Translations under genes and position numbers: made by a program
In this document: one piece after another, positions 37,506 to 57,901 of the stretch
Layout of the letters: every line of letters begins with the position of its first letter
Position numbering within the stretch: the first letter of the stretch is position 1
Virus record (IMG/VR): IMGVR_UViG_3300025294_000236
Coordinates: 1 to 57,901 of that record
DNA: 57,901 nucleotides
Direction: 5' to 3' (one strand)
Origin: a virus
The notes under the pieces: generated by a model
Databases searched by the model: none
Seen by the model: only the letters and a program-made list of their open reading frames with translations
What the model was told of the DNA's origin: nothing

Positions 37506-37870
37506 GAGCACCTCTGCGCTTCGCGGCGTCGCGAAAAATCGAAAATTGCGCCTTTTAGACTCTCACCGGAGGAGGCGCGTGAACCTCCGGAAGAAGACCG
37601 GCGATGGGAAGGATTCTGAGCTTTCCGAATCTAGCCTCGAAATTTCCGAGGCCGCATGTCGTAGAGCTCTATCCTGAATCGTTGGCGGCCAGAGAGACCG
37701 GGTGAGCGGTGGTGGGCGTGTCGCCCTGAACCGTTACTGGTAGCGCGCCTGCCGGCGCTACCGAGCGCCCTTCGGACTATAGGTAGTGGTTCCGAGAGGG
37801 CTGCTTCGCGATGTTTGCCCTGATTTTTCGTCTGGGCGCAAGTGGTTCGTCGCGATGGGCCGATCGAAGT

Positions 37871-40113: not shown

Positions 40114-40944
40114 TCACCTGACGGCCACGCCGGCGCGGCGGAGCCTGGTTGCGACGATCTGCATGGCCTGCTTGCGCAGGTAGTCGAGGGTCGAGCGGGC
40201 CATGACGCGGTTGGGGAGCGCGGTCTTGGGGCTGACCTTGGTCGGATGGCAGTGGAACGCCTTGCAGGCGGCGTTGAAGCGCTGCTGCGCCTCATGGCGG
40301 ATGTCGACGTGCTCGGAGCGGGGTGAGACAGCCATGGCGCTGTTGGCCCAGGACACGACCTCCGAACTCAGGATCGATCGCAGCTCCTGCCGCCACTGCT
40401 CATTGATCGGGCGCGTGTCTCCCGGGTGCGGCCGCGCATTGGCCCGGCGCTCCATCTCTGCGGCAATGGCCAGAGCCCGGCGCTTCCTCAGGTGCAGCAG
40501 CCGGGAAATGTCGAAGTCGTGCGCCTTGGCATAGGTCCAGAGCATCAGCGCATCGGCTTTCAGCACCTCGCCATCGAGGAAGCGCCGCGGCCAGCCTAGA
40601 GCCTCGTTCATGCGGGAGATGGCCTCGGACGACGGCCGGCTGCGGCTCGAGCTCCGTTCGGCCGCATGGTTCTTCTGCGCGTCCGGGTCCACGAGGTCCG
40701 CGAACTCGCGCATCATCTCTGGCCAGCCATTGCCGAACGCTTTGGGCCCGACATGCCCGCAGCTGACCCGCAGCGTATCGTAGGCCTCGATCATGCGGGC
40801 GCCGACATGCTCGGGCGTCCACTCAAGCGGAACGTCGCCCTCGCCTATCGCGTCGATCCGCTCCTGGAGGTCGGTAACCCAGCCTTCGAAGCCAGCGATC
40901 GGGGTGGTGACGAAGCCCGTGTCGTCCATGTCATCGCCCTTCAT
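40114..40944 (-). CDS. Hypothetical protein linked to replication genes
   Basis: A 276-residue protein whose ATG overlaps the helicase stop (TGATG). Features include VGARMIEAYDTLRVSCGHVG, NGWPEMMREFADLVDP, SEAISRMNEALGWPRRFLDG and RKRRALAIAAEMERRANARP, mostly helical with possible helix-turn-helix parts. Such proteins often sit next to phage helicase genes. It may load or regulate the helicase, but that is inference. An internal ATG at 40929 with AAGGGCG upstream is an alternative start. Confidence 0.65.
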   Translation of the reverse strand: MKGDDMDDTGFVTTPIAGFEGWVTDLQERIDAIGEGDVPLEWTPEHVGARMIEAYDTLRVSCGHVGPKAFGNGWPEMMREFADLVDPDAQKNHAAERSSSRSRPSSEAISRMNEALGWPRRFLDGEVLKADALMLWTYAKAHDFDISRLLHLRKRRALAIAAEMERRANARPHPGDTRPINEQWRQELRSILSSEVVSWANSAMAVSPRSEHVDIRHEAQQRFNAACKAFHCHPTKVSPKTALPNRVMARSTLDYLRKQAMQIVATRLRRAGVAVR

Positions 40945-42317
40945 CAGAATTGAAAGCCGTCAGGGAGTTCGGAAGTCGCCTTGGCGAAATCGGAATTCGC
41001 GGCCGCCTCTGCGGAATTCAGCGCGGTCGGTTCGGAATTATCCCGGTCTACATGGAGGACGCGCCGCTCCGTGCGCCACACCCACTTGTCGCCAACGCCG
41101 ATGATGCTGCGGTTCGACAGAGTGACCGATGCGGCGTCCCTCGCCTTCCGACACCGATCGCGGAACTTGGCGTCGTTCTTGTCGTCGCCGGGCATCACCC
41201 GGATCATCTCGTCGAGCCATTGCTGCATCGTCACGCCGCGGCGTCCGTGGGGCGCGCGGGCCTCGAACGGCACCGCCTGATCCTTCTCCTCGATCGCGGC
41301 CTGCAGCGCCTTCATCGCGATCGTCAGGTTCGGCCCCAGGATCACGCGGCCATCCGGCGTCATGCTCGCCTGCCGGGATTTGAGCTCGGATGCCGCGTCG
41401 TGCATCTCCGCGAGCTGCATGGACGGATCGGTGCCCAACGCGGTCACGACGCAGGAGGTAATCGCGTCGCCGTCCTCGTCCTCGCCAACCTCGCGTTGTC
41501 GCAAGCGGAATTCGTGCCGAGCGCCCGTCGGGCCGGCCTTCAGGCGCGTGATCTGCCACTGGTTCGGGCGACCATTGAAGGCTGGGGAGACGAACCACTG
41601 GCCGTCATTGTCGCCCTTGAGCGAACCGTGTCCTCGGGGGTCGAGCGAGCCCCCGGCCTTCGGTGTATGGTGGACGCCGGCCACCGCCGTCTCGCATTCG
41701 TCCTGGATCTTCTTGCAGTTGCGCAGGAAGGCCCCGACCACCTCCGACTTCACGTCGTCCCCACCGGCCAAGCTCTTGTTGACCGTGTCGACGAAGGCGA
41801 TCCCCACACCGACGCCGAACTCCGCCCGCATCATTTCGTCCGCTGTCTTGATGTCGGCGATCAGGTCTGTCGTCTGGTGCGCCTCCGAGCGCAGGTCGAT
41901 CGCGACCGGGACGAGAAGGAATGGCCACCGGAAATCTGATGGCAGGTCATGCTCCTGCAGCCACGCATGGATGCGGATGATGAAGTCGTCTTGCCCCTCG
42001 CCGGCAAGGTACACGATGCCGCATGGCTTGCACTTGCGGCCGAACCACTCGACTTCCTTCTCTCCCTTCGCCGCGGCCAGCGCCAACGTGCAGGCGAGAT
42101 CAAGAGTGAGGAAGGACTTGCCGCACCCAGGCTCCCCGATCACGAGGTGCATGGTGCGAGCGAGAAGAGCGCCCTTGACGATCCAGTCGCGCTTGGGCGG
42201 CTTGTTCCCGATCACGTCATGGACGAACGACGCGCGCAGCTTGAACGAGCGCAGCATCGCCATCGCCCGCGTCTCGAACGTCTCAAAGTCCTCGATCGGT
42301 GGTGGCGCGTGGATCAT
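40944..42317 (-). CDS. RepA-like replicative helicase (AAA_25 ATPase)
   Basis: A 457-residue RecA-fold ATPase. Residues about 45-260 carry LVIGEPGCGKSFLTLDLACT (Walker A), GIVYLAGEGQDDFIIRIHAW, GIAFVDTVNKSLAGGDD (Walker B) and GVHHTPKAGG (sensor). The layout is that of hexameric RepA-type helicases and related phage proteins. The C-terminal part (residues 330-430) contains a DNA-binding-like region with a basic stretch. It would unwind the origin with the adjacent primase. Confidence 0.83.
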   Translation of the reverse strand: MIHAPPPIEDFETFETRAMAMLRSFKLRASFVHDVIGNKPPKRDWIVKGALLARTMHLVIGEPGCGKSFLTLDLACTLALAAAKGEKEVEWFGRKCKPCGIVYLAGEGQDDFIIRIHAWLQEHDLPSDFRWPFLLVPVAIDLRSEAHQTTDLIADIKTADEMMRAEFGVGVGIAFVDTVNKSLAGGDDVKSEVVGAFLRNCKKIQDECETAVAGVHHTPKAGGSLDPRGHGSLKGDNDGQWFVSPAFNGRPNQWQITRLKAGPTGARHEFRLRQREVGEDEDGDAITSCVVTALGTDPSMQLAEMHDAASELKSRQASMTPDGRVILGPNLTIAMKALQAAIEEKDQAVPFEARAPHGRRGVTMQQWLDEMIRVMPGDDKNDAKFRDRCRKARDAASVTLSNRSIIGVGDKWVWRTERRVLHVDRDNSEPTALNSAEAAANSDFAKATSELPDGFQF

Positions 42318-43072
42318 GCTGCGGAGCCTCGTAGAGGCGCCAAGAGCGGGGCATCACCATCAATGCGAGCGCGTATGACAGGCACGAATGACTCATCGCC
42401 CTCGATCAGGATCGCATCCATGCCGTGGCGATTGGCGAGAACACCTGTCGTGCCGGAACCGGCGAACGGGTCGAGGACAGTGCCTCCCGGCGGGCAGGCG
42501 AAAAGCAGAAGAGGCTCAACGATAGCCAGTGGCTTTTGCGTCGGGTGCTCTGCCGATCCGTGCTCCGAGCGAGCAAAAATCACGCTACGCATCAGGCGGT
42601 CGCCGCCGTCATACGATTTGTACGAGCCGGGCTTTATCTCCCCCGCATGCGTTGGCCCGCGGCGCCTGACTACGGAGCGGAAGACCGCGTCTGGAGTGGT
42701 CTGGACGGCTTTGTAGACACCACCCCACGGAGCGTCATCGCGATAGAATTGCAGGGCCAGTTCATGGACACGCTTGAAACGATCCGCAGCGAAGCCTGAT
42801 CCGTTGTGCTTTTCCCAGACGACATCCTGCGCAAGGCGCCAACGAGCGAACTCGTCCGCCGTCTCCAGGAACATCCGCTGCGACCCAAAGACCCACATGC
42901 TGCCAGTCGGCTTGAGGACGCGTCGAACCAGACGCGGCCAGCCCGGGACGCGCTTGTCCCAGCGCAGGGAAGTTTCGCCATAGGGCGGATCGGTCACGAT
43001 GCAGTCGACACTTTCGTCAGGGATCGAGTCCACGGCGTCGCGCATGTCGGCGTTGATGATGCGAACCGTCAC
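42314..43072 (-). CDS. DNA adenine or cytosine-N4 methyltransferase, beta class
   Basis: A 252-residue enzyme with DPPYGETSLRW (motif IV) at about 27-37 and LDPFAGSGTTGVLANRHG (motif I) near residue 205; the order IV, target domain, I defines the beta class, which includes CcrM. The HPTQKPLAIVEPLL motif precedes motif I. It lacks the extra C-terminal domain of CcrM. I chose the GTG at 43072, which overlaps the upstream stop and follows AAGGTGG. No nuclease partner is present, so it is an orphan enzyme, perhaps for protection or regulation. Confidence 0.85.
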   Translation of the reverse strand: MTVRIINADMRDAVDSIPDESVDCIVTDPPYGETSLRWDKRVPGWPRLVRRVLKPTGSMWVFGSQRMFLETADEFARWRLAQDVVWEKHNGSGFAADRFKRVHELALQFYRDDAPWGGVYKAVQTTPDAVFRSVVRRRGPTHAGEIKPGSYKSYDGGDRLMRSVIFARSEHGSAEHPTQKPLAIVEPLLLFACPPGGTVLDPFAGSGTTGVLANRHGMDAILIEGDESFVPVIRARIDGDAPLLAPLRGSAA

Positions 43073-43482
43073 GACCAATCCACCTTGTAGACCGTGATGC
43101 CGAGCTTTTCGGCTTGGCGGCAGCAATCGCGGGTGCCGCGGGAGCCGGGGAACGCGATGACGGCGGACGGCTGTTCCTCCTTCAGCATCACGCCATTGCG
43201 TTTTGGTCCCGCGGCGTTGCCGAAAGCGGGCCAGTCCGCGACGTAGACCTTGAACGGAATATCCTTGCTCTCAGCCCACGCAGCAGCCAGAGCATCGGCG
43301 CCAGTGGCATCGCCGCAAGCCAGACGAGAAAGCTCGAGGCGCGCCACCGCAGCGTCCAGAACGGCCACAAGGCGACCGCGCTCGCGTTCCGCCGCGGCCT
43401 CATACTGCAGCCGCAGCCCATCAGGGATGTGGTCCGGCACCAGCCCATACGAACGGCCGCCGCAGACGACGATGGTGGTCAT
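43069..43482 (-). CDS. SLOG-domain protein (DUF2493-like)
   Basis: A 137-residue Rossmann-like protein. It begins MTTIVVCGGRSYG, then LACGDATGADALAAAWAESK, then VMLKEEQPSAVIAFPGSRGT and ITVYKVDWS, the pattern of DUF2493/YspA-type SLOG domains. These are thought to bind or sense nucleotide derivatives. It is ATGA-coupled between primase and methyltransferase. Confidence 0.8.
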   Translation of the reverse strand: MTTIVVCGGRSYGLVPDHIPDGLRLQYEAAAERERGRLVAVLDAAVARLELSRLACGDATGADALAAAWAESKDIPFKVYVADWPAFGNAAGPKRNGVMLKEEQPSAVIAFPGSRGTRDCCRQAEKLGITVYKVDWS

Positions 43483-44648
43483 GCCGCCCTCTTCGGTTCG
43501 CGCCCCAGGAGCAGGTCGTTGAAATCGAGACCGTTCGGCGCGAAGTGCACGAAGGGCGTGATGCCCTGCTGCCGGAAGCGCCGGGCGCCGGTGAGAAGCG
43601 CAGCGTGGGTCGCGTAAGTGTCGGAATCGCCGTCCCCGAGCAGGATGAGCTCCTTGACCTCGGACGGGAGCAGCAGGCCCGGACGCGCCATGTCGGGCGT
43701 CCCATTCATGATGGTCTTGATGTTGCCGTTCGGGCGCGGATGCGGGAGGCGCCCGGTAGGCTCGCCAGACAAATTGCCGAGCGACACGGCGCACCAGAGA
43801 CCGACGTCATCCGGGCCGGCATCCATCTGCCACCATGAGGCGCAGGTCTCGATGCCTTCTCCGCTCGCCATGCAGGCGCGCGCCGGCGACATGCGGATCG
43901 CGCCGCCCTTCCACTCGGCATAGACCTTCTTGGCCGCGTTCAGCCGTCGATCGCCGGGGGGCTCGAGCTTCTTCGGCTCGCGGGCGTCGAGGTAGGTCCG
44001 GTGGATTCCGATGATGGTGTCATCGAGCGCGCGGATGGCGGCAACGACGCAGGGGAATTCGCCCAGCAGCTTGAGCTTTTCCTCGCCTTCGACATTGCCC
44101 CAGTATTCGAGCGACGGCGCGAAGCGGATGTCGACGCACATATCCGCGGACATCGTGATCTTGCGCCGGCGGAAATAGGCGTCGCCGTCGGTGCCGAGCA
44201 GATACTGGCAACGGTCGAAGATGCGCGCGGCACGCTCGCGATCGGTCTCCTTGCGCTTCGTCTCCCGCTCTTCCCGAGCAAGGTCCCGGTCCTTCCGTTC
44301 CTCGCGCCGTTCCTTGACGATGGACGGATCGAGCGGAACGACGTTGGAGTCGCGCCCAGGCGGTGGTTCTCCATTGATGATCTCGCACGCCTCCATCAGG
44401 GAGACGCCGTCGAGGTGCATCACCATGTCGATCGCGCTGCCGCCCTCCGCGCCGCGGCAGTTGAAGACGCGCTCGCGCTCATTGACCGAGAAGCGGTCGG
44501 TGCCTCCGCAGACGGGGCATGGCCCCTGCCACTCCCCGCCTGAGCGCTTCAGCACCGCTCCACGCTCCTGAGCGAGAGACAGCAGGTCAGACGAACTGCG
44601 CGCCCTGTCGATCCATTCCTGAACGTCTGGATCGTAGGCGCCGCTCAT
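43479..44648 (-). CDS. DNA primase with zinc finger and Toprim domain
   Basis: A 389-residue primase. Residues about 40-70 form the zinc ribbon (GPCPVCGGTDRFSVNERERV, FNCRGAEGG). A charged linker (110-140) follows. Residues about 255-345 are the Toprim core: ACMASGEGIETCASWW with the catalytic Glu and LILLGDGDSDTYAT with the DxD. It makes RNA primers for the helicase encoded two genes downstream. It lacks a DnaB-type helicase domain. Confidence 0.86.
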   Translation of the reverse strand: MSGAYDPDVQEWIDRARSSSDLLSLAQERGAVLKRSGGEWQGPCPVCGGTDRFSVNERERVFNCRGAEGGSAIDMVMHLDGVSLMEACEIINGEPPPGRDSNVVPLDPSIVKERREERKDRDLAREERETKRKETDRERAARIFDRCQYLLGTDGDAYFRRRKITMSADMCVDIRFAPSLEYWGNVEGEEKLKLLGEFPCVVAAIRALDDTIIGIHRTYLDAREPKKLEPPGDRRLNAAKKVYAEWKGGAIRMSPARACMASGEGIETCASWWQMDAGPDDVGLWCAVSLGNLSGEPTGRLPHPRPNGNIKTIMNGTPDMARPGLLLPSEVKELILLGDGDSDTYATHAALLTGARRFRQQGITPFVHFAPNGLDFNDLLLGREPKRAA

Positions 44649-45034
44649 GGCTGCACCTGGAGCGTCTTGGCCTTGTTGTACTGCTTCGTCGGGGTGGAGA
44701 GCTTGCCGAGACGCTTGCGGGCGGCGTCGATCCCATCGTCGACCAGAAGCCGGACGGCATAGTCGACCATCACGGCAGGGCTGACCTTGGCCTCGTCAGC
44801 AAGCGTCTGGATGGTCCCGGCACGGCGCAGGCTGACATAAGCGGTGACGCGCCGGGAATTGTGCCGACTGAGCGGGATCGCATAACGCTCCGCGATCTTG
44901 CAGACACGCTGGCGATTGATGCCGATCACGCGCGCGATCTCGACCGGTGACTTGCCCTGATCGGCGAGCTCTCGGATTTGCTTCGCCCGGCGCTGACCGA
45001 CCGGAGTGATATACATGTGGCCCTTGAGGTACAT
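44645..45034 (-). CDS. Helix-turn-helix regulator
   Basis: A 129-residue basic protein starting MYLKGHMYITPVGQRRAKQI. GKSPVEIARVIGINRQRVCK is a typical helix-turn-helix. A second helical part (IQTLADEAKVSPAVMVDYAV) may also bind DNA or dimerise. It lies upstream of the primase and may regulate the early operon or recognise an origin. Confidence 0.7.
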   Translation of the reverse strand: MYLKGHMYITPVGQRRAKQIRELADQGKSPVEIARVIGINRQRVCKIAERYAIPLSRHNSRRVTAYVSLRRAGTIQTLADEAKVSPAVMVDYAVRLLVDDGIDAARKRLGKLSTPTKQYNKAKTLQVQP

Positions 45035-45348
45035 CACGCTCCCCTGTCGATTTGCTGGAAGGCACGTTTTCCGGCTGTCACCGCCTTGACCACGACGGCC
45101 GGAACCTGGCGCCCGAAAGCTGAGGCACCCTCGCCATCGGCCTTGAGCGTGGTCAGCATTTCCGCGCTCGCGGCGAGCAACGCGGCCTCGCGCAGGTGCT
45201 CCTTGTAGACGCCTTGGCCGCGCGCCTGAGCCGAACGCTCGCGCGCCCTGAGCGTCGCGCATTGCTGCTCGACCGCGTCGATGCATGCCGCCATAAACGC
45301 GCCGCCCGGAAGCGTCTGCAGGTCGGCGAATGGGTCGGGGGCGCTCAT
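45034..45348 (-). CDS. Small hypothetical protein
   Basis: A 104-residue protein starting MSAPDPFADLQTLPGGAFMA, mostly helical (ACIDAVEQQCATLRARERSA). The ATG overlaps the upstream stop and its own stop overlaps the next ATG. No motif is recognised. It may be a partner of the helix-turn-helix protein. Confidence 0.62.
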   Translation of the reverse strand: MSAPDPFADLQTLPGGAFMAACIDAVEQQCATLRARERSAQARGQGVYKEHLREAALLAASAEMLTTLKADGEGASAFGRQVPAVVVKAVTAGKRAFQQIDRGA

Positions 45349-45731
45349 GACAGCACCTCGCAAACCGGCCGGTTCGCCAGATCGATCAGCACGTCGGCAT
45401 GGCAGGGCGCTCCTGCCTTGCACCAGCAGGCGAGGTTCTTGCCGCGGAGCTTTGGCAACGCGGACCGGAAAGCTTCGGCTGTTTCACCCGAGGCCGTCAT
45501 CATCTCGCGGAAGCACTCGACAGCATCTTCCGCCGTTGGGACGCTGAAAGTCTGGTAGCCCGGCATGCCCCATGTTCGACCAGGCTCGTGGTGCGGGTGG
45601 ACCGAGAACGGATTGCCCCACGGGCCCGGCCGCGTGACCTTCACCGCCGGCAGGCCGTTCGTGGCCTGCGACAGCGCCTGCAGGTCGAAGCCCTTGCGGC
45701 GCGAGAGCTGGAGACGGACGGGTCCGGTCAT
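45345..45731 (-). CDS. DUF4326-family protein
   Basis: A 128-residue protein. KVTRPGPWGNPFSVHP, then DAVECFREMM, RSALPKLRGKNLACWCKAG and APCHADVLIDLAN match the DUF4326 pattern, with Cys and His that could bind metal. The family is common in phages and has no established activity that I know of. It overlaps its neighbours by 4 bases. Confidence 0.8.
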   Translation of the reverse strand: MTGPVRLQLSRRKGFDLQALSQATNGLPAVKVTRPGPWGNPFSVHPHHEPGRTWGMPGYQTFSVPTAEDAVECFREMMTASGETAEAFRSALPKLRGKNLACWCKAGAPCHADVLIDLANRPVCEVLS

Positions 45732-46324
45732 GGCCGCCCCTCCGCGAAGACGCCGGCCGGGGCCATGAGGGCCGCGACCTTCCGATGCTGCATGGGGGTG
45801 ACGATCTGCGCCTGGGACGGTGCGACCTGGATGCAGGACCATGACCAGAGAGCGGCCGCGTCTGCCTCGTCCGTGTTCTTCGGTGTCCACCCGAGCTCCA
45901 CGCACATCGCCTTGACGTGCTTCTTCGGGTTGGGCGGGTAGCCATGACCGACGAAGGTCTTCCGGACCGTCTGCACCTTTCCGGTTCGCCACCGAATCTT
46001 CTTCATCTCCGCAACGAACTCGACCACGCCGGTCATCTTCGCGAGCGTGATGGTGGTCTGCGGATTGCCCTTGGCTTTGACCCGCTTCTCCTCCGGGTCG
46101 TACTCGCCAGGGATGATGCCGAGCGCCGCCTCGTAATAGAGCCAGTCGGGCTTGGACACGCGGCAGAACTCAATCAGCCACGTCCCAAGCTTGGCCATGG
46201 CGGCGGCCGTCTCGATGTCCTTGCCGGGGAGAGACAGCAGCGTGGGGCGCTCGCCGGGACGTCCGAAAGCGACGCCGGTCATCGTCTTAGACAAGTCGAG
46301 CGCGAGGATGAGAGGCCCGCTCAT
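45728..46324 (-). CDS. RuvC-like Holliday junction resolvase
   Basis: A 198-residue nuclease of the RNase H fold. ILALDLSKTMTGVAFG holds the first Asp, DWLYYEAALGIIPG the Glu, and NTDEADAAALWSWS the final acidic pair. KHVKAMCVELGW precedes it. It would cut branched recombination or packaging intermediates, consistent with the YqaJ and RecT genes elsewhere in the window. The start at 46324 overlaps the upstream stop. Confidence 0.82.
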   Translation of the reverse strand: MSGPLILALDLSKTMTGVAFGRPGERPTLLSLPGKDIETAAAMAKLGTWLIEFCRVSKPDWLYYEAALGIIPGEYDPEEKRVKAKGNPQTTITLAKMTGVVEFVAEMKKIRWRTGKVQTVRKTFVGHGYPPNPKKHVKAMCVELGWTPKNTDEADAAALWSWSCIQVAPSQAQIVTPMQHRKVAALMAPAGVFAEGRP

Positions 46325-46410
46325 GGCCACACCCTCCGGACGAAGCTGCCGAGCAGCACCCAAAACGTCAGGCCGAACGGGATCGCGATGAGGATTCCGC
46401 GGAAGGGCAT
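46321..46410 (-). CDS. 29-residue membrane peptide
   Basis: It begins MPFRGILIAIPFGLTFWVLL and ends FVRRVWP, a single hydrophobic segment flanked by basic residues. The ATG overlaps the upstream stop (TGATG), its stop overlaps the next ATG, and GGGAG lies 8 bases upstream. Precise coupling supports real translation. Confidence 0.55.
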   Translation of the reverse strand: MPFRGILIAIPFGLTFWVLLGSFVRRVWP

Positions 46411-47345
46411 CAGGCTATCTCCCGCAGCCGGACGTTGATCTTGTCGGACCAGAGGTCGAGGCCGATCGAGGCGAGATTGGCGCGCTCGATGTTGAGCGCT
46501 TGGCGAACGACCTCTGCCGACTGGCACTTGGCGCGCTTCGCCACGATGTCGAAGCCGAAGAGATCGCCATGCTTCAGCACGTCAAGCGCGCGGGCGGCCG
46601 TCTCGCGCACGTAGACCATGCCGTCCGGCCCGTAGACGCGGTCGCCATCAACGGCGGCAAGCTTGTCGATCGCGGGCGCTGGCCGCTCTGGCGCTGGCTG
46701 GGCTGCCTCCGATGCGGGAGTGTCCGCCTTCTGTTCGGGCGTCGCCTCTTCCGCCGCTGCCTCCGGCGCGGAGGTCGGCGAACCCATCGGGCTGACAAGA
46801 CGATAATGGGACGGCTCCCGGCCGCCCCTGGCGCCTACGCGCTGCTTGCCGGGAACGGACTCAACCTTCAGCGCGACGCCAGCCTTCTTCAGGTCTCGGT
46901 TTAGGTCGATGACCTGCGCCTTCACCCCGTCCACCGTCGGCGCGACGCGGGCCCTCGCAAGCTCAGTCAGCGTCATCGGCTTGATGCGAAGGGTATTCAG
47001 CAACAGGGCGCGCCGCTCGGTTGTCCTGATGTCGACTCCGCCATAGCTGACGATGAAGGGCGGCCGCGCGCTCTCGCCATTCTTGCGTCGGTCGCGCTTG
47101 GTCTTGGGCGCCGGCTCCGCGTCGAAATCCATCTTCGGGACTGGCGGCGCTCCGCCGGGCGCTTCGACGATCGTCGCCCTGTCTGGCAACGGGCCGATGT
47201 CCCACATAGGATCTGGCGCGCTCTTGTCGAGCATGCCGGCGAGCATCAGGACGAGCCGCTCCGTCGCGCGGAACGAGGCCTGCTGAACCGCCTGCTGATC
47301 CTGGATCGCGCGGATGATGTCGTAGGGGGACGGAGCGATGGTCAT
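46410..47345 (-). CDS. Winged-helix-like protein, 311 residues
   Basis: The N-terminus is helical; residues about 96-185 (PFIVSYGGVDIRTTERRALL, MTLTELARARVAPTVDGVKA, GREPSHYRLVSP) look like a winged-helix DNA-binding domain. A low-complexity Ala/Glu linker follows, then a second domain (ARALDVLKHGDLFGFDIVAK). It may act in replication or transcription control. No firm family. Confidence 0.65.
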   Translation of the reverse strand: MTIAPSPYDIIRAIQDQQAVQQASFRATERLVLMLAGMLDKSAPDPMWDIGPLPDRATIVEAPGGAPPVPKMDFDAEPAPKTKRDRRKNGESARPPFIVSYGGVDIRTTERRALLLNTLRIKPMTLTELARARVAPTVDGVKAQVIDLNRDLKKAGVALKVESVPGKQRVGARGGREPSHYRLVSPMGSPTSAPEAAAEEATPEQKADTPASEAAQPAPERPAPAIDKLAAVDGDRVYGPDGMVYVRETAARALDVLKHGDLFGFDIVAKRAKCQSAEVVRQALNIERANLASIGLDLWSDKINVRLREIA

Positions 47346-47659
47346 GGCTGCGTCTCCGCTAAAGCGGCGTCCAGAACGGCTCCGGCCGCGCCCTGCGGGC
47401 TGCCGCTGTCATCACGCGGCATTGCCGCCGCCAGTTCGCCGAGTGTCGCGCCGTGCTGGAGGGCGATCGACGCCAGCGTCGCGATTTCTAGGCCGGCGAT
47501 GTGCGACTCGGTGGTGAGCTTGTTGCAGCCGATGAAGAGCTCTGCCGGCCGCTCGCCGCTGAAGCCGATCGTCACGTCGTAGGAGACACGCGAGCCCGGC
47601 ACCGGATGTGGGACATTGATCACGATGCCTTCGCGGCGGTTGGGAGGTCGCTGTCTCAT
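47342..47659 (-). CDS. TSCPD-like domain protein
   Basis: A 105-residue protein starting MRQRPPNRREGIVINVPHPV. The segment SYDVTIGFSGERPAELFIGC, LEIATLASIALQHGATLGEL and AMPRDDSGSPQGAAGAVLDA follows the TSCPD pattern seen at the end of B12-dependent ribonucleotide reductases and as stand-alone phage proteins. No reductase gene is present in the window. Role unknown; possibly nucleotide-linked. Confidence 0.7.
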   Translation of the reverse strand: MRQRPPNRREGIVINVPHPVPGSRVSYDVTIGFSGERPAELFIGCNKLTTESHIAGLEIATLASIALQHGATLGELAAAMPRDDSGSPQGAAGAVLDAALAETQP

Positions 47660-48219
47660 GGCAGCATCTCCTGACGAGCGAGCAGGCTGCGATAAGACGG
47701 CGTGGTCACGACCGGCAGGCAGTGCTCGCACCATGACGACGTTCCAACAGTGGGGAGGCCGCAGACGAGCTTCTCGGTAACCGGCAGGGCATCCCAGCCG
47801 GGCAGAGGCATCGCGCATTGGAGCGGACGTCTATCGAGGAAGAGGACACCCCGAACATCCGGCCTCTGTCTGGTCGACACTTGGTCGAACGTGCCGACCG
47901 TCACCAGATCGGGGACCAGCGTGAGGCCATCGCGCTCGCGCTCACGCTCTGCCGCCTTCTTGGCAATGCGTTTCGGGTTAAGCCCAAGTCGGCTTGTCCG
48001 GTCCTTAGAAGTGGCCGGCCGAGTGCCCTTCTCGGCTTTGTCGCGCGGCACCGGTGTCACCTTGGGCAATCCGAGACGAACGCTCTTGCCAATCACCGCG
48101 TTGCGGGGTGGTGCGCCGATCTCCCGCATGATCTCGCTAGCGGAAAAACCACGAGCCCGCAGGTCGCGCAGCGCTGTCACGCGCTCGTCAGTCCATTCCC
48201 ATTTCGCATGCATGTTCAT
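47656..48219 (-). CDS. GcrA-like cell-cycle regulator
   Basis: A 187-residue protein. Residues about 7-55 (KWEWTDERVTALRDLRARGF, SASEIMREIGAPPRNAVIGK, SVRLGLP) match the GcrA DNA-binding domain. The C-terminal end has ALPVTEKLVCGLPTVGTSSW and CEHCLPVVTTPSYRSLL, a cysteine layout like the GcrA sigma70-contacting domain. GcrA activates promoters with sigma70 and is linked to CcrM methylation in alphaproteobacteria. The phage form may redirect host transcription. A basic linker (85-105) joins the domains. Confidence 0.78.
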   Translation of the reverse strand: MNMHAKWEWTDERVTALRDLRARGFSASEIMREIGAPPRNAVIGKSVRLGLPKVTPVPRDKAEKGTRPATSKDRTSRLGLNPKRIAKKAAERERERDGLTLVPDLVTVGTFDQVSTRQRPDVRGVLFLDRRPLQCAMPLPGWDALPVTEKLVCGLPTVGTSSWCEHCLPVVTTPSYRSLLARQEMLP

Positions 48220-48245
48220 ACTGCCCCCACCTCGCCTGGTAGCGC

Positions 48246-48431
48246 CTATTCGGCCGCCTTCTGCTGGCGCTGATAGGAAACGACGGCGTCAGGCTCAGCG
48301 ACGGATAGGACGAGGCGCAGAAGCGTCTCCAGACCCTGCAGTTCCTGCTTGCGCGTCTCGATCGTCTGAGCGAGCAGATCGGCATAAGCGGTCGACTCGT
48401 TGTTGAGCCGCAGGACGTGATCGGTCCTCAT
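48246..48431 (-). CDS. Small coiled-coil protein
   Basis: A 61-residue protein starting MRTDHVLRLNNESTAYADLL. The ATG at 48431 has GGAGG 7 bases upstream and overlaps the upstream stop. It is a helical coil (QTIETRKQELQGLETLLRLV). Unknown role. Confidence 0.62.
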   Translation of the reverse strand: MRTDHVLRLNNESTAYADLLAQTIETRKQELQGLETLLRLVLSVAEPDAVVSYQRQQKAAE

Positions 48432-48529
48432 GGCAGCCTCCATGGCTTTCCGTTGATGATGAGCGTGGTCGCGACGCGCGGTCGGAAGAGAGAGCGGGCG
48501 CGGCGCACAAGGCGGCGCAGGGCGCTCAT
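48428..48529 (-). CDS. 33-residue basic peptide
   Basis: It begins MSALRRLVRRARSLFRPRVA and ends NGKPWRLP. The ATG overlaps the upstream stop (TGATG) and its TGA overlaps the next ATG, an exact fit in the coupled chain. Strongly basic, so RNA or DNA binding or membrane interaction is possible. Confidence 0.55.
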   Translation of the reverse strand: MSALRRLVRRARSLFRPRVATTLIINGKPWRLP

Positions 48530-48714
48530 CAGAACACCGTCAGGCGCGCGACATCCTCTGGGTCGGGCTTGGGCTTCGGCTCGAACTCGTCCCAGTCGTC
48601 ATGCGGGATGTCGTCGTCATCGCCGGCGCCGAAGATGGCGACCCAGCACAGGGCCACCACGCCGGCGAGGATTGCGATCAGGTATCCCGGATCAAATTCC
48701 GCACGAGGCTGCAT
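48529..48714 (-). CDS. Small single-pass membrane protein
   Basis: A 61-residue protein. Membrane segment YLIAILAGVVALCWVAIFGA is followed by a very acidic tail (GDDDDIPHDDWDEFEP). GGGAGGGGG precedes the ATG. The acidic cytoplasmic or periplasmic tail could mimic nucleic acid, but function is unknown. Confidence 0.62.
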   Translation of the reverse strand: MQPRAEFDPGYLIAILAGVVALCWVAIFGAGDDDDIPHDDWDEFEPKPKPDPEDVARLTVF

Positions 48715-48736
48715 ATCCCCCTCCCCGAGGTTGAGA

Positions 48737-49171
48737 TCAGTTCATTGCGCTGATGCCGGAGCGCAGCTTGGCGGCGTTCTCCGCGGCGGCGCGCTCGTCC
48801 TCGTCGGGCTCATCGCCCTCGGTCAGGCTGTCGATCGCCGCGCCACGGGCCAGCGTCGCCTCACCCAGCGGGAGGTCCGCGATCATGCCGAGGGCGAACT
48901 TGATCTGGTCGTAGGTCTCGGCTTGCTCCGGCTCCATGCCGCCGCGGAGCTGCTCGATCTTCTTGGTGAGATCGCGCTCCTTGATGACCGCCTTGAGCTC
49001 CTTCTTAGGGACTCCGTGGTCTTTGGCCCGGTCGTAGACGTCGGAGATCATCTCCTTGACCGACTGGACGCGCTGAGCGTGCTCGCCCTTGTAGGAAAGG
49101 ATCTGAGCGTTGTGCCGCTCGATCTCGCCGACGAAACGCTTCAGCACTTCGCCGTCATAGCCATTGCTCAT
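48737..49171 (-). CDS. GapR-like (DUF2312) nucleoid protein
   Basis: A 144-residue helical protein. Residues about 5-70 (GEVLKRFVGEIERHNAQILS, SVKEMISDVYDRAKDHGVPK, KELKAVIKERDL) follow the DUF2312/GapR pattern, whose host members clamp overtwisted DNA and help replication. The acidic C-terminal part (TEGDEPDEDERAAAENAA) is extra. It lies in the early operon, so it could protect or organise phage DNA or compete with host GapR. Confidence 0.75.
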   Translation of the reverse strand: MSNGYDGEVLKRFVGEIERHNAQILSYKGEHAQRVQSVKEMISDVYDRAKDHGVPKKELKAVIKERDLTKKIEQLRGGMEPEQAETYDQIKFALGMIADLPLGEATLARGAAIDSLTEGDEPDEDERAAAENAAKLRSGISAMN

Positions 49172-50124: not shown

Positions 50125-50130
50125 CATGAT
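50115..50130. promoter_or_regulatory. Operator palindrome at the switch
   Basis: ATCATGT, 2 bases, ACATGAT form a perfect 7-base dyad. It shares WTCRTGTNNACAYGAW with the site at 51682. Three bases after it on the plus strand is TGTTCACACA (50134-50143), also shared. An added half site ATCATGT lies at 50106-50112. It is the probable binding site of the S24 repressor and the Cro-like protein. Confidence 0.75.
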
Positions 50131-50136
50131 ATCTGT

Positions 50137-50155
50137 TCACACAATCTGTGATAAT
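50137..50155 (+). promoter_or_regulatory. Repressor promoter -10 and second dyad
   Basis: GATAAT (50150-50155), preceded by TG at 50147-50148 as an extended -10 element, would start transcription close to the ATG at 50162. TCACA (50137-50141) and TGTGA (50147-50151) form a second small dyad over it. The spacing suggests a leaderless repressor transcript, as for lambda cI from its maintenance promoter. Confidence 0.5.
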
Positions 50156-50161
50156 GCGCCC

Positions 50162-50968
50162 ATGCAAGAGATGGGCATCAGATTGCGCCAGGCGCGTACC
50201 GCCGCCGGCTTCCGATCAGCACGCAGCGCCGCGATCCGGTTCAACTGGACGGTGTCGACTTACGGCGCCCACGAAAACGGGCAGAACGAGTTCGACGCCG
50301 CCGCCGCTGCGGAATACGGACGCGCATTCAAGGTCTCGGCAGCATGGCTTCTCACCGGCGAAGGACAGCCCCCGACGCCGCGAGGGCCTCAGCCGACAAT
50401 TGAGACGCCTCCCATTGAAACATTCGCGGAGTTCGAGCGAAGGGCCGAGGCTGTGATGCGCGGTGAGACCGCCTCGCCTCGGGCGTCTCGATCGCCCTAC
50501 GTCGCCGAACCTAATGCCGAGATTGAAGGCCCGGCCATGATGAAGTGGCCCTCCCCCGTCCGCGACGTCGAAGAGTTGGGCGCTGCAGTGGCGAGCGTTG
50601 ACGGCGACGATAGCGCGTTTGAGCTCAACGGCGAGGTCGTCGACCGCGTCATTCGGCCGCCTGGATTGGCTAACCGCCCAGGCGTCTTCGCGCTGCGCGT
50701 CGCGAACCATTCGATGTGGCCGATGTACCGCGACGGCGCCCGTGTTTACCTCGACACGAAGAAGCCCGTCGTAACCGACGGCATCGTTGTCGAGCTGAAG
50801 CCGACCGAGGAAGGCCGACCGGGTAAGGCCTACGTGAAGATGTTGGTCTCGATGGACTCCCGAAAGGTGGTCGTCGAACAGTTCAATCCACCGGGGCGGC
50901 TTGAGTTCGACCGCGACGAGATCTTGCGGATATTCCGCGTCATACCCAACGAAGAGCTGTGGGGATAA
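50162..50968 (+). CDS. CI-like repressor with S24 peptidase domain
   Basis: A 268-residue protein with an N-terminal XRE-type DNA-binding domain (residues 5-65; MGIRLRQARTAAGFRSARSA, TVSTYGAHENGQNEF) and a C-terminal LexA/CI-type domain. ANHSMWPMYRDGARVYLD holds the catalytic Ser and GKAYVKMLVS the Lys, so RecA-stimulated self-cleavage is likely. A Pro/Glu-rich linker joins them. I chose the ATG at 50162. It maintains lysogeny and probably binds the operators at 50115 and 51682. Confidence 0.88.
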   Translation: MQEMGIRLRQARTAAGFRSARSAAIRFNWTVSTYGAHENGQNEFDAAAAAEYGRAFKVSAAWLLTGEGQPPTPRGPQPTIETPPIETFAEFERRAEAVMRGETASPRASRSPYVAEPNAEIEGPAMMKWPSPVRDVEELGAAVASVDGDDSAFELNGEVVDRVIRPPGLANRPGVFALRVANHSMWPMYRDGARVYLDTKKPVVTDGIVVELKPTEEGRPGKAYVKMLVSMDSRKVVVEQFNPPGRLEFDRDEILRIFRVIPNEELWG

Positions 50969-50996
50969 CACTGCGCGCGGACTCTACGCGCGGTGT
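50968..50996. other. Hairpin after the repressor gene, no T tract
   Basis: ACACTGCGCG (50968-50977) and CGCGCGGTGT (50987-50996) pair over 10 bases with one T-G pair and a 9-base loop, directly overlapping the stop codon. No T run follows, so it may be a T-poor terminator or stabiliser. Confidence 0.45.
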
Positions 50997-51273
50997 GACG
51001 TGCACGCTCGGGCGACTTTCCGTAGTTCGCGCGCGGGGTATAGATAAAAACCTATATCCAGCGAGCACTCTGATCCTCTACGAGGCAGGACGATATCGAC
51101 CTTGATGAGAGGGTATCAATGCAGCGGTGAGCGCCTTAAGCGTCCCTACCCGAATGGGTCGCTGGCTACGATGAGGGAGTGTCGAGCCGGCTCCTGACGG
51201 GCCGGACGCTCCGTCGAGCCAGACTCCACGCTGGACGATGACCGTCTCACCCAGCCTCAACGGCTCCGGTTAG
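50997..51273. other. Non-coding gap after the repressor
   Basis: About 275 bases without a convincing gene. It has a locally AT-rich stretch near 51039-51060 (TATAGATAAAAACCTATATC) that looks promoter-like, and GC-rich inverted segments around 51180-51230. A small RNA is possible but not supported by a clear terminator. Confidence 0.4.
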
Positions 51274-51513
51274 CTAGAGCTCTACGCCGCGCGATACCTG
51301 CGAACGGACCTGATCAGGACGACGGAACACGGGGATCAGGGACAAGCGATCGCGCTCGCCGCACTCGATGCAGACTAGGCGCGACCGAACCTCATCGATC
51401 TGATGTATCCCCTTCTCGCACAAGCGTCCGAGAGCGCCCGAGTCGAGACGCTTCCCGCGTCCGCAGCCATCGCACCCAACCTCGATCGCCAGCATTTCGT
51501 CGAGCGTCGGCAT
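51274..51513 (-). CDS. Zinc-ribbon protein
   Basis: A 79-residue protein starting MPTLDEMLAIEVGCDGCGRG, with GGAGGG 6 bases before the ATG at 51513. Two pairs, CDGCG and CIECG, about 35 residues apart, should bind one zinc. It lies leftward and convergent with the repressor. Similar short ribbons sit near phage switches. Role unknown. Confidence 0.68.
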   Translation of the reverse strand: MPTLDEMLAIEVGCDGCGRGKRLDSGALGRLCEKGIHQIDEVRSRLVCIECGERDRLSLIPVFRRPDQVRSQVSRGVEL

Positions 51514-51681
51514 CGGCGCCCTCCGCTCAGACCAGGCCATACTCATCACGCGCCCCGTCAAGTTTGTTCTTCTTAGGTTCTCATTAACGACTCAGAATTT
51601 CGCAGGAGTCCAGAGCTGATTCGCGCCCCTTGGAGCGCGGCAACTCAGGTCCGGTTTTGCACACGATCCCTGTTTACAGAT

Positions 51682-52751: not shown

Positions 52752-53152
52752 TGGGCGAAATTGCCGAAATGATGCTGAATGGCGACCTCGACGAGGAGAC
52801 CGGCGAGTATATCGGCCCCGGACAAGGGTTCCCAAGATCGCCGGCACGAGCCGCGCGGCATAGCGCATCGCGCCGCACGACCGCAGTCGAAATCCCGTAC
52901 CCCACCGCAGCAATGACCAGCCAGACGGATGGGAAGGTCGTTGCAGCAAAAGCGCTGAGGTGGCTATGGCTTGCAGCTCAACCCGGGAGCGGCGCGTATC
53001 CCGGTGTTCAATGGGATGCCGCCCCGGGTGTGTTCCAACGCCTGCAGCGGCGTGGGCTCGTCACAACGTTTGAGCCGCACAACGACGCTCACAAAACACG
53101 GGCAGTTGCGACAAGCGCGGGGATGTCCTTACTCCGACAGGTGCCGGCATGA
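52751..53152 (+). CDS. Hypothetical protein with remnant of a phage knuckle motif
   Basis: A 133-residue protein starting MGEIAEMMLNGDLDEETGEY. The first 35 residues (IGPGQGFPRS) resemble a short phage domain that normally carries CxxCG-type cysteines; here they are Glu/Thr/Ser, so metal binding is lost. The rest (LRWLWLAAQPGSGAYPGVQW; FQRLQRRGLVTTFE) looks like a small winged-helix. Coupled to both neighbours. Confidence 0.6.
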   Translation: MGEIAEMMLNGDLDEETGEYIGPGQGFPRSPARAARHSASRRTTAVEIPYPTAAMTSQTDGKVVAAKALRWLWLAAQPGSGAYPGVQWDAAPGVFQRLQRRGLVTTFEPHNDAHKTRAVATSAGMSLLRQVPA

Positions 53153-54180
53153 ACGCGCCCGTCACCTTACCGATGATGTCTCTGGAACTGGCCTCGCGCG
53201 AGCTGAAGCCGGCCGGCGTCGATCGCATTCCGATCAAGAGCCGAGACCAGTGGCTGCAGGAGCGCAAGGGCGACGTGACTGCCAGCGTGGCCGGGGCGAT
53301 CTTGGGTGTGCACGAGTACGTCACCCCTTACGGCCTGTACATGGAGAAGGCCGGCCTCGCGCCCGAGCAAGAACAGGTGACGCCGGTCATCGACGAGGAC
53401 AGCATCACGCTGCCTCCCCTTCTGCGCGGTACGCTATTTGAGCGCGCGGCGATCGACATGGTCCGGATGCTCCGGCCCGACTGGGAGGTCTCCCCGGCCA
53501 ACGACGCCTATTACCGGATGCCCGAGGCGCGCATCGGCGCAACGCCAGACGCCTTCGCCCGGCGCCCCGATATCAAGGGACTCGGCATTCTCCAGGTGAA
53601 GACGACCGACGGCCTGATCTTCCGCCAGAAGTGGCTCGACGAGGAGGGCAGCGTCCAGGTGCCGCTGTGGATCGCGGTCCAGGCACTCGTAGAGGCTCGC
53701 TTGACCGGCGCCTCATGGGCCTGCGTCGCCCTCCTCGTCGGCGGCATCAACACCAAGCTCCACCTGATCGACATCCCGCTTCACGAAGGTGTCTGGGCTC
53801 GCCTCGTCGAAGAGGTCCGCGAGTTCTGGCGCCGCATCGAAGAGAGCGACCCGCCGGCGCCGGACTATGGTCGCGATGGCGCGCTGATTGCGGGGCTCTA
53901 CGCGACCGACGACGGAACCGAGGTCGACCTGTCCAGCGACAACCGCATCGGCGAGATCCTCGACCAGCGCGCCGGCCTCAAGGCCACCGAGACCGCAGGC
54001 AAGGACGCGGAGAAGAGGCGCCGCGAGCTGGACAGCGAAATCCTCGCGAAGATGGGCGCCGCCGCCCGCGCGCGCCTCGCCGACGGACGCACCATCACGG
54101 CCAAGACCATCAAGCGCTCCGGCTACACCGTGCAGCCCGGCAGCTACCGCACCGTCAAAGTGAAAGGCGAAGCAGCATGA
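53149..54180 (+). CDS. YqaJ-family recombination exonuclease
   Basis: A 343-residue nuclease of the lambda exonuclease type that resects double-strand ends for annealing. RKGDVTASVAGAILG, RGTLFERAAIDM, ARIGATPDAFARRP and GLGILQVKTTDGLIFRQKW mark the active site. The usual Glu of the ExK motif is Gln here (QVK), which may alter activity. It works with RecT encoded two genes on, as in a Red-like system. The C-terminus is an extra basic helical part. Confidence 0.84.
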   Translation: MNAPVTLPMMSLELASRELKPAGVDRIPIKSRDQWLQERKGDVTASVAGAILGVHEYVTPYGLYMEKAGLAPEQEQVTPVIDEDSITLPPLLRGTLFERAAIDMVRMLRPDWEVSPANDAYYRMPEARIGATPDAFARRPDIKGLGILQVKTTDGLIFRQKWLDEEGSVQVPLWIAVQALVEARLTGASWACVALLVGGINTKLHLIDIPLHEGVWARLVEEVREFWRRIEESDPPAPDYGRDGALIAGLYATDDGTEVDLSSDNRIGEILDQRAGLKATETAGKDAEKRRRELDSEILAKMGAAARARLADGRTITAKTIKRSGYTVQPGSYRTVKVKGEAA

Positions 54181-55247
54181 ACGCGCCAGCAGCGGCCGTG
54201 ATCGGTCACAATTCCGCATCCTACCTGCAGATGGTCGAGGCCGATCCGGCGATCATCTACCGAGATGACGAAGCTCTGCCGGCGCTGGTCGACGAGCTCG
54301 ACGCGCTAATCGCCGCCGCCGTCGGCGACGTGACGACGAAAAAGGGACGCGAGGCAATCGCTTCGCTGGCTCACTCGATCTCCCGTCGCAAGACCCCGAT
54401 CCTGGATGCTGGCAAGAAGCTGACCGAGGACTGGCGCAAGAAGACCGGCGAGGTCAATGCGCGCAAGTCGATGGTCGAGCAATATCTCGACACGCTGCGA
54501 GACAAGGCTCGCGCGCCGCTCGATGCATGGGAAACGGCTGAGAAGAGCCGCGTCGTCCGCGTCGAGACCGCGATGAGCACCTTCCGGCAGGCCACATCGT
54601 ACCCGGCCAGCTACACGATCGCGAACTTCGACGAGGACATCGCGGCGATCGAGGCCATCTCAATCGACGGCGACTTCGGCGACCAGGCAGACGCGGCCGA
54701 GGACGCCAAGGTCGAGGCCATCGCGGCGCTCCGTGTCGGTCGTGCGAATCTGATCAAGGCCGAGCAGGAGCAGGCCGAATTGGCGCGCCTGCGGGCTGAG
54801 GCTGAGGAGCGCGATCGCGTTGCCCGGCAGGAAGAGGCACGACGGGCGGCGGAGGAAGCCGATCGCGACCGGATTGCGGCGGCAGAGCGACGAGCAGCGG
54901 CTGAGGCCGAAGCGCGCGTCAAGGCCGAGCAAGAGGCCGCGGCTGCCCAGGCGAAGGCGGAACAGGAAGCCGCTCTAGCCGAGGAGCGCCGCAAGGCCCG
55001 CGAGGCGGAGGAAGCGCTGGCCGCAGAGAAGCGTCGGCAGCGCGAAGAAGCGGAAGCCCGCGCCGTAGCCGAGGCGGCCGCCCAGCGCGAGCAGGAGCGC
55101 CGACAGGCCGACATCGCACACAAGAGCAAGATCATGGGCGAAGCCAAGGCCGCGATCATGACGTGCGGGGTCGATGAGCCGATCGCCAAGCAGATCGTGC
55201 TCGCCATCTGTGCCGGCTCCGTCCCCCACATCACCATTCGGTTCTGA
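54177..55247 (+). CDS. Coiled-coil protein of the recombination operon
   Basis: A 356-residue protein. The start at 54177 overlaps the exonuclease stop. Residues 1-185 form a globular helical domain (ALVDELDALIAAAVGDVTTK; RKTPILDAGKKLTEDWRKKT). Residues 190-315 are a long Ala/Glu/Arg coiled coil. The final part (KIMGEAKAAIMTCGVDEPIA, AICAGSVPHITIRF) is a conserved-looking end. Genes like this often accompany phage YqaJ and RecT; the function is not known to me. Confidence 0.7.
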   Translation: MNAPAAAVIGHNSASYLQMVEADPAIIYRDDEALPALVDELDALIAAAVGDVTTKKGREAIASLAHSISRRKTPILDAGKKLTEDWRKKTGEVNARKSMVEQYLDTLRDKARAPLDAWETAEKSRVVRVETAMSTFRQATSYPASYTIANFDEDIAAIEAISIDGDFGDQADAAEDAKVEAIAALRVGRANLIKAEQEQAELARLRAEAEERDRVARQEEARRAAEEADRDRIAAAERRAAAEAEARVKAEQEAAAAQAKAEQEAALAEERRKAREAEEALAAEKRRQREEAEARAVAEAAAQREQERRQADIAHKSKIMGEAKAAIMTCGVDEPIAKQIVLAICAGSVPHITIRF

Positions 55248-55258
55248 GGAGAAGCGGC

Positions 55259-56398
55259 ATGAACGCCGTCGTCGAAGCCAAGCCGGCCCAGCCCATCGTC
55301 AAGCTGCGCGAGCAGTTCGAGACGCGGGAGGATTCGTTCAAGTCGGCATTGCCGGCACATATCCCGGTCGAGCGCTTCCTTCGTGTCGTCATGACGGCCA
55401 CCCAGCGCAATCCCGATCTCGTCGCGGCCGACCGCCAGTCGCTGTTCAATTCGGCGTTGCTGGCGGCTCAGGACGGTCTTCTTCCCGATGGCCGCGAGGG
55501 CGCGCTGGTCATCTACAACACGAAGGTCAAGCAGGACGGCAAGGACGTCTGGGTGAAGGCCGTCCAATGGATGCCCATGATCGCCGGCATCCTCAAGAAG
55601 TGCCGTAATTCCGGGGAGCTCTCGTCGATCGAGGCCCATACCGTCCACGCCAACGACAAGTTCTCCTACCGCATCGGCATTGATGAGCAGCCCGTTCATG
55701 AGCCGGACTGGTTCGCGGATCGCGGGGCCGTCGTCGGCGTCTATGCGGTCGCCAGGCTGAAGGATGGCAGCCGCGTTTCCGAGATCATGAGCAGGGCTGA
55801 GGTCGAATCCGTACGCGCCATCAGCCGCGCCAAGGACTCGGGCCCTTGGGTTCAATGGTGGGGGGAGATGGCGCGAAAGACGGTTCTGCGGCGCCTGTCT
55901 AAGCGGCTCCCGATCTCCAGCGATCTCGACGACCTGATCCGGCGCGATGACGCTCTGTACGACCTAGAGGGAGCGCGTCAGGACGCTCAGCGTCATGCGC
56001 CTCGCTCTCTCGCGGCCAAGATGGATGCACTCGCTAGCGGCATGAGCAAGCCGCCGCAGATCGAGCAGGCCCCTGATACGCCCGCGGTCACCGACCAGCG
56101 CGCTGCGCCCGGTGCGAAGGCCATGGACCCATATCGCTCGGCTGATGAAGCTTCCGGTGCCGTAGCGGGCCAGGGGGAGGACGGCGGCGGCGCTCATGAT
56201 GAGGCCCCGTCGTCCGATACCGGCGACGAGCCGACACCGGCTCAGCTAGCATTCGAGCGCGGCGCCGAAGCCAAGCGCGACAACCTCGGCACCCGCGCCA
56301 TGCCCGGCGAATACCGCCAGGAGGGCCGCGAGCCCGAAATGCAGGCGTGGCTCGCCGGACACAAGTCCGTGCAGGTCGAGACGGTGGAGGGCAAGTGA
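55259..56398 (+). CDS. RecT-family single-strand annealing protein
   Basis: A 379-residue annealase. The core (residues about 35-260) carries IPVERFLRVVMTATQRNPDL, SLFNSALLAAQDGLLPDGRE, ALVIYNTKVKQ and MPMIAGILKKCRNSG, then WFADRGAVVGVYAVARLKDG and WVQWWGEMARKTVLRRLSK, all typical of RecT. The C-terminus is disordered and acidic. It pairs phage DNA ends made by the exonuclease. GAGGAGAAG precedes the ATG. Confidence 0.88.
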   Translation: MNAVVEAKPAQPIVKLREQFETREDSFKSALPAHIPVERFLRVVMTATQRNPDLVAADRQSLFNSALLAAQDGLLPDGREGALVIYNTKVKQDGKDVWVKAVQWMPMIAGILKKCRNSGELSSIEAHTVHANDKFSYRIGIDEQPVHEPDWFADRGAVVGVYAVARLKDGSRVSEIMSRAEVESVRAISRAKDSGPWVQWWGEMARKTVLRRLSKRLPISSDLDDLIRRDDALYDLEGARQDAQRHAPRSLAAKMDALASGMSKPPQIEQAPDTPAVTDQRAAPGAKAMDPYRSADEASGAVAGQGEDGGGAHDEAPSSDTGDEPTPAQLAFERGAEAKRDNLGTRAMPGEYRQEGREPEMQAWLAGHKSVQVETVEGK

Positions 56399-56883: not shown

Positions 56884-57485
56884 TCCTCTTCTTCGACACC
56901 GAGACGACAGGGCTGCCGGACTACCGGTCCCCTTCGAACGCCCCGCACCAGCCGCACCTCGTGCAACTGGCTCATATCCTCTGCGAGGACGACGGGTCCG
57001 ATGTTGAACAGGCCAACGTCATCATCCGGCCGGACGGCTGGACGATCCCTGACGACGTCGCGGCCATCCACGGCATTACCACCGAGATCGCCATGGAGAA
57101 GGGAATCCCGATGGCGGAGGCCATGGATGCCTTTCTGACGGCCCGGCGTCGCGCCGAACTCCGTGTGGCCCACAATGTCAGCTTCGACGACCGGATCATG
57201 CGCATCGCCATGCTCAGGCACGGACTGGTGCGCGAGGATATCGAAACTCTGGAGGCCGGTCGGAAGTTCTGCACGGTCCAGGCGACCACAACGCTGGTGA
57301 ACCTGCCGCCGACTGAGAAGATGGTCGCGGCCGGCTTCAACAAGCCGAAGCCGCCGAAGCTGATCGAGTGCATCAAGCACTTCTTCGGCGAGGATCTGGA
57401 TGGCGCGCACGACGCGATGGTGGATGTCTCCGCCTGCCGCCGCGTCTACTTCCATCTTCAGACGCTTCAGGGCGCGCAGCCATGA
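56880..57485 (+). CDS. DnaQ-like 3'-5' exonuclease
   Basis: A 201-residue DEDDh exonuclease. LFFDTETTGLPD holds motif Exo I, LRVAHNVSFDDRIM Exo II, and GAHDAMVDVSACRRVY Exo III with the His before Asp. It starts at a GTG overlapping the upstream stop. It may proofread or trim ends in recombination, since no phage polymerase is visible. Confidence 0.84.
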   Translation: MILFFDTETTGLPDYRSPSNAPHQPHLVQLAHILCEDDGSDVEQANVIIRPDGWTIPDDVAAIHGITTEIAMEKGIPMAEAMDAFLTARRRAELRVAHNVSFDDRIMRIAMLRHGLVREDIETLEAGRKFCTVQATTTLVNLPPTEKMVAAGFNKPKPPKLIECIKHFFGEDLDGAHDAMVDVSACRRVYFHLQTLQGAQP

Positions 57486-57901
57486 CCTGGCCCTTCGGCG
57501 ACCTCAAGCGGGGGCATTATTCGGTGTGCCTCATCGATCCTCCGTGGGCTTGGAAAGGCGGCACGAAGAGCCGCCCGCAGCACTACGGTCGCTTGACGCT
57601 CGACCAGATCAAAGCGCTGCCAGTGCGCGACCTGCTGAAGCCAGAAGGCGGCCGCGTCGGGCTTTGGCTCACCGCACCTCTGATGCACCGCATGCCCGAG
57701 ATCGCGAAGGCATGGCGGCTCCGCTACTCGTCCATGATCCCGTGGATCAAGCTCTGGAACAACGAGGGCGGCATGTTCGTCTATGCGAACTCGGTCGCAC
57801 GCGGGACGGGTCTTGAGGTCGTCGGCAACGCCGAATACTGCGTGATCCTGAAGGCCGGTCGACCACACTCGATCCTTGGAAAGCCCTTCCCAGGAGTGCT
57901 G
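57482..57901 (+). CDS. MT-A70 adenine methyltransferase, cut at window edge
   Basis: At least 140 residues, with CLIDPPWAWKGG (the DPPW catalytic motif), KALPVRDLLKPEGGRVGLWL and IPWIKLWNN, the typical MT-A70 layout. The last 40-60 residues are missing to the right. It would add N6-methyl to adenine in DNA, perhaps to avoid host restriction. Its ATG overlaps the exonuclease stop. Confidence 0.85.
   Translation, partial: MTWPFGDLKRGHYSVCLIDPPWAWKGGTKSRPQHYGRLTLDQIKALPVRDLLKPEGGRVGLWLTAPLMHRMPEIAKAWRLRYSSMIPWIKLWNNEGGMFVYANSVARGTGLEVVGNAEYCVILKAGRPHSILGKPFPGVL

Follow-up and report, generated by a model that had tools for sequence, protein, structure and literature searches.

The early region of the 57.9 kb virus record IMGVR_UViG_3300025294_000236, the whole of which is the window analyzed here, encodes a GcrA-like protein, a GapR-like protein, and a β-class DNA methyltransferase, and raises the question of whether a phage carries its own version of the alphaproteobacterial cell-cycle circuit. 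The first-pass annotation took the three proteins for mimics of GcrA, GapR, and the host methyltransferase CcrM that act as a linked set. Below, the identity of each protein, its conservation among phages, and the distribution of GANTC sites are considered in turn.

Organization of the early operon

All three genes lie on the minus strand in a leftward run of mostly overlapping genes from about 50105 to 40114, which confirms the proposal that they share one early block. The run includes the GapR-like gene (48737–49171, −), the GcrA homologue (47656–48219, −), a RuvC-like resolvase (45728–46324, −; phrog_159, 1.2e-7), a CHC2-zinc/Toprim DNA primase (43479–44648, −; phrog_510, 1e-60), the methyltransferase (42314–43072, −), and an AAA_25 (RepA/helicase-type) ATPase of the replication module (40944–42317, −; PF13481, 2.8e-29). 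The longest methyltransferase reading frame extends to 43126, and the best start is a GTG at 43072, within a GTGA that also contains the stop codon of the preceding gene (43069–43482). Divergent from the block is a CI-type repressor with HTH and S24 peptidase domains (50126–50968, +; phrog_4, 1.1e-21). The block is best read as the early, replication-centered operon of a probably temperate phage of an alphaproteobacterium, and the three gene assignments are more than chance.

A record search found no near-identical phage records. The phage family to which the window belongs (L180–L183 and L002) keeps the order repressor, then GapR, RuvC, HTH, primase, and ATPase; primase and ATPase are both kept in L180–L183, in which the resolvase lies directly downstream of GapR. 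These closest relatives retain GapR and lack both GcrA and the Mox-type methyltransferase described below. L180–L183 also keep a YqaJ-type exonuclease and RecT pair, found in the rightward block of the window (53149–56398, +).

The GcrA homologue

The 187-residue protein encoded at 47656 had been called GcrA-like, and it is a real homologue. It scores 57.9 bits against the Pfam profile PF07750 (cut-off 26.9; 2e-15) and matches the solved Caulobacter GcrA at 3e-9 in a PDB sequence search. In the AlphaFold prediction, for which 41 phage GcrAs served as input (mean pLDDT 79.7), the DNA-binding domain (residues 8–51) aligns by Foldseek with 5yiv, a GcrA structure on methylated DNA, at 0.8 Å over 45 residues with a TM score of 0.94 of the target; the fit to 5yiv and 5yiu together is 0.7–0.8 Å, and the RNAVIGK motif is intact. 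The protein has the two-domain layout of Caulobacter crescentus GcrA (PF07750; PDB 5yiv, 5yix, and 7ye1) and is 56% identical to it over 45 residues of the DNA-binding domain, whereas its C-terminal domain, the σ70-interaction domain, is strongly diverged. Of the columns shared by 60% or more of the phage GcrAs, the window protein retains 26 of 34 in the N-terminal domain; its C-terminal domain retains 6 of 16, the lowest value of the 41. Within the C..C..C..H scaffold, C135, C153, and C164 are retained and a cysteine replaces the histidine of YCxxH at position 167, while the CRWP of phage GcrAs reads CAMP. The orthologue-level NCBIfam equivalog NF050816 is not reached (48.8 bits vs a cut-off of 280), and a single-sequence scan of viral contigs retrieves no close relatives, which are detected only with alignments. 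Judged by sequence, the protein is a member of the GcrA family and not an orthologue-level GcrA.

A phage-encoded member of this family has a precedent in gp222 of phiCbK, which was proposed to change the replicative state of the host (PMC3556154). phiCbK is a large 205 kb siphophage, whereas the window is a repressor-bearing 58 kb record whose early replication operon has GcrA next to GapR.

With only 6 of 16 C-terminal columns retained, the protein may no longer act as GcrA, and because the σ70-binding domain is so strongly diverged, both activation via σ70 and mere competition with host GcrA are possible. In the latter case, the protein would bind methylated GANTC without productive σ70 contact, thereby occupying GcrA sites and shutting off host cell-cycle promoters. 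The extreme divergence of the C-terminal domain, with its histidine-to-cysteine and CRWP-to-CAMP replacements, points in this direction, as do the GcrA-type DNA-binding domains that stand alone, with a GapR like that of the window as neighbor, in two other viral contigs (see below). On the other hand, the three scaffold cysteines remain and the C-terminal fold is modeled with confidence (pLDDT about 90), so the domain may still bind a σ factor or another partner. Such an antagonist, a special case of the explanation preferred below, is rather unlikely.

The GapR-like protein and its phage subfamily

The 144-residue protein encoded at 48737 was assigned to GapR in the first pass. Its own score does not carry that assignment (19.3 bits against PF10073, below the cut-off of 22.6), and as a single sequence it matches neither the solved GapRs nor any close relative in the viral contigs, for which alignments are required. 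Homology is established through relatives. The homologue in L002 clears the PF10073 cut-off at 24.8 bits. Seven viral-contig relatives (L177–L183) form with the window protein an eight-member phage subfamily, all eight members of which match PF10073 (best 2.6e-7). Profile–profile comparison by hhalign links the subfamily to phage GapRs (97.7%, E 2.5e-12), and a subfamily profile devoid of canonical GapRs retrieves the solved structures with E values of 2e-4 to 1e-3. A model of the monomer (pLDDT 80) returns no GapR among the fold matches listed, helical folds being poorly discriminating in such searches. Taken through its relatives, the sequence is that of a real, if diverged, GapR.

The AK..G..K.L...K.R core and the ALG ending are common to the window protein, GapR/UPF0335/DUF2312 (PDB 6cg8 and 6ozx), and the GapR of Erythrobacter phage R34L1 (PMC12185513). 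In the alignment, the first helix of the window protein contains an insertion of 11 residues and its last helix is preceded by one of 7 residues; both insertions and an acidic C-terminal tail set it and its phage subfamily apart from GapR/UPF0335/DUF2312.

Two members of the subfamily are accompanied by a short protein consisting of a GcrA-type DNA-binding domain without the C-terminal domain (L177:7573–7953 and L179:8539–8985). These short proteins are possible natural GcrA antagonists.

The methyltransferase is of the Mox type

The enzyme encoded at 42314 belongs, as first annotated, to the β class: it matches PF01555 with 128.7 bits (4e-37), and its DPPY motif precedes DPFAGSGTTG. This motif order and the N6_N4 methylase fold are shared with CcrM. 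In contrast to CcrM, the enzyme has 252 rather than about 358 residues, ends about 50 residues past motif I, has no RAMA domain or other Pfam match beyond the methylase domain, and matches the CcrM equivalog NF050803 only in two fragments (94.6 bits vs a cut-off of 830). Its closest characterized relative is instead Mox of Myxococcus phage Mx8, likewise an early phage gene, with 55% identity over 82% by tblastn and an overall range of 49–55% across the catalytic and recognition regions. The Mox-like recognition region (DRFRRVHE, T.DA.AR, and Y.SEDGGPRLM..S) is present in the alignment. The host of Mx8 belongs to a different class from that of the window phage. Mox acts on adenines within XhoI and PstI sites and is not known to modify GANTC. 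Viral relatives of the window enzyme reach 60–69% identity and prophage-like loci with relatives occur in Devosia, Bradyrhizobium, Rhodovulum, Xaviernesmea, and others, a distribution which shows that the family occurs mainly in Alphaproteobacteria.

Descent from CcrM is therefore rejected, and the first-pass reading of the methylation leg as a CcrM counterpart gives way to that of a predicted Mox-type orphan DNA adenine methyltransferase, which probably marks a sequence other than that of CcrM. Site counts in the window (17 CTCGAG vs 35 expected and 29 CTGCAG vs 18 expected) were uninformative as a clue to the target and were dropped. A second, putative adenine methylase of the same phage is suggested by an MT-A70-family sequence (57482–57901, +; PF05063, 2.6e-10) that directly follows a DnaQ-like exonuclease and is cut by the end of the window.

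A closed phage-borne circuit could still be attained by convergence if the enzyme methylated GANTC as CcrM does, the phage GcrA read these marks, and GapR supported replication. GANTC-specific phage methylases unrelated to CcrM do exist; PhiLM21_p027 and Phi2/3LM21_p21 are, like the window enzyme, found in replication modules of alphaproteobacterial phages, but these prophage enzymes carry NPPY/F/W motifs whereas that of the window is DPPY (PMC5537653). Moreover, in one phage locus (L009), GapR, GcrA, and a Mox-type methylase are immediate neighbors, in the order of the window. The kinship with Mox, including the conserved recognition region, speaks against convergence, as do the absence of GcrA and the methylase from the closest phages and the inconsistent occurrence of methylases in GcrA phages. 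A self-contained circuit of this kind is quite improbable.

GcrA and GapR recur together in phages

GcrA relatives are encoded in 147 viral-contig stretches. GapR is found in at least 494 (L264–L343), against a statement in PMC12185513 that the Erythrobacter phage R34L1 gene was the first GapR seen in a phage genome; published accounts appear to understate greatly how common GapR is in phages. After removal of near-duplicates, with loci picked by best match and neighborhoods of about 10 kb, GapR is present in 16 of 64 GcrA loci. Conversely, GcrA accompanies 16 of 77 GapR loci, compared with 1 of 105 control loci (Fisher p 4e-6, from counts that ignore phage kinship), the controls being Mox-type methylase loci without GapR that are themselves phage gene neighborhoods. 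The partners share a strand in 28 of 32 cases and lie within 2 kb of each other in 18, and the pairing is found across different phages with varying gene order. The co-occurrence of GcrA and GapR in alphaproteobacterial phages is recurrent and not accidental, and may be due in part to shared phage ancestry.

Methylases follow no such pattern. Among 50 GcrA-bearing phage records, PF01555 is found in 18 and PF05869 in 6, together 22 records, with neither family in the other 28; because many of these records are fragments, the counts are lower bounds. Some of those near GcrA in L190, L196, and L217 are of SPPY types that differ from CcrM. GapR lies near a Mox-type methylase in eight deduplicated loci, all among the closest relatives of the methylase. 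In L190 (6188–9308), L196, and L185, the GapR and GcrA genes flank or adjoin methylases of the SPPY type or of other types. A conserved "complete circuit" is rejected, given that the closest phages lack GcrA and the methylase and that the methylases of GcrA phages are of various types, with none found in some. What endures of the linked set first proposed is the pair of GcrA and GapR homologues and their recurrent association; a CcrM-like partner, and conservation of all three in the closest relatives, do not.

The same survey bears on whether the three genes are linked at all, or were gained independently by a permissive early operon and have no joint function. The relatives devoid of GcrA and methylase, the variable methylase types, and the sheer abundance of GapR in phages agree with unlinked gains. 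Set against these are a pairing frequency far above the control, mostly on the same strand, and its recurrence with different gene orders in different phages. Independent accessory genes are a less probable but serious alternative.

GANTC sites

The window contains 78 GANTC sites where about 236 are expected, a three-fold depletion equal to the level in other GcrA or GapR phages and, as expected, fitting a CcrM-bearing host. Depletion does not differ between phages with and without GcrA (p 0.14) and was rejected as a mark of phage GcrA.

Within this depleted genome, sites gather at 37558–37676 and 50980–51622, stretches without clear genes. The latter includes three sites within 34 bp (51589–51622) between divergent genes, upstream of a σ70-like promoter at 51688. 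Tests for clustering are not significant (p 0.08–0.2; p 0.2 for 51589–51622 alone), and the clusters are therefore set aside as evidence for GcrA promoters and not counted as support.

Proposed roles and significance

The simplest reading is that the phage GcrA reads host CcrM marks. With moderate confidence, we favor an overall explanation in which the phage GcrA responds to GANTC marks made by the host, GapR acts in the replication of phage DNA, and the methylase works apart from both, in protection or regulation. By analogy with GapR, the phage-adapted subfamily at the core of the early operon most likely associates with phage DNA during its replication, where it would help to relieve positive supercoils. 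The GcrA homologue would be an insertion next to GapR, with a DNA-binding domain that most likely recognizes GANTC methylated by the CcrM of the host; it could alter transcription from the small number of phage or host promoters that carry GANTC, and so tie transcription during infection to the host replication state. The Mox-type methyltransferase would be an independent accessory, probably methylating another site for restriction protection or phage gene regulation. The gene identities, the synteny, the recurrent GcrA–GapR pairing, and the missing RAMA domain are shown by the analysis, whereas every step of binding, timing, and phenotype, including the rewiring of transcription and chromosome replication put forward in the first pass, is inferred.

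More tentatively, GcrA and GapR may constitute a recurrent phage module of Alphaproteobacteria, in which a reader of CcrM methylation is paired with a DNA-topology factor such that early transcription and replication of the phage are timed to host S phase. With a truncated or C-terminally degenerate GcrA, such a module would instead block host GcrA promoters. GcrA had been reported from a phage in 2012 and GapR in 2025, each on its own, and no paper in the literature collection searched treats GapR, GcrA, and prophage together; the recurrent pairing is the most useful new point. If functional, it would make it easy to examine whether epigenetic marks inform phages of the host cell cycle, and would supply natural GcrA variants with altered σ70 domains.
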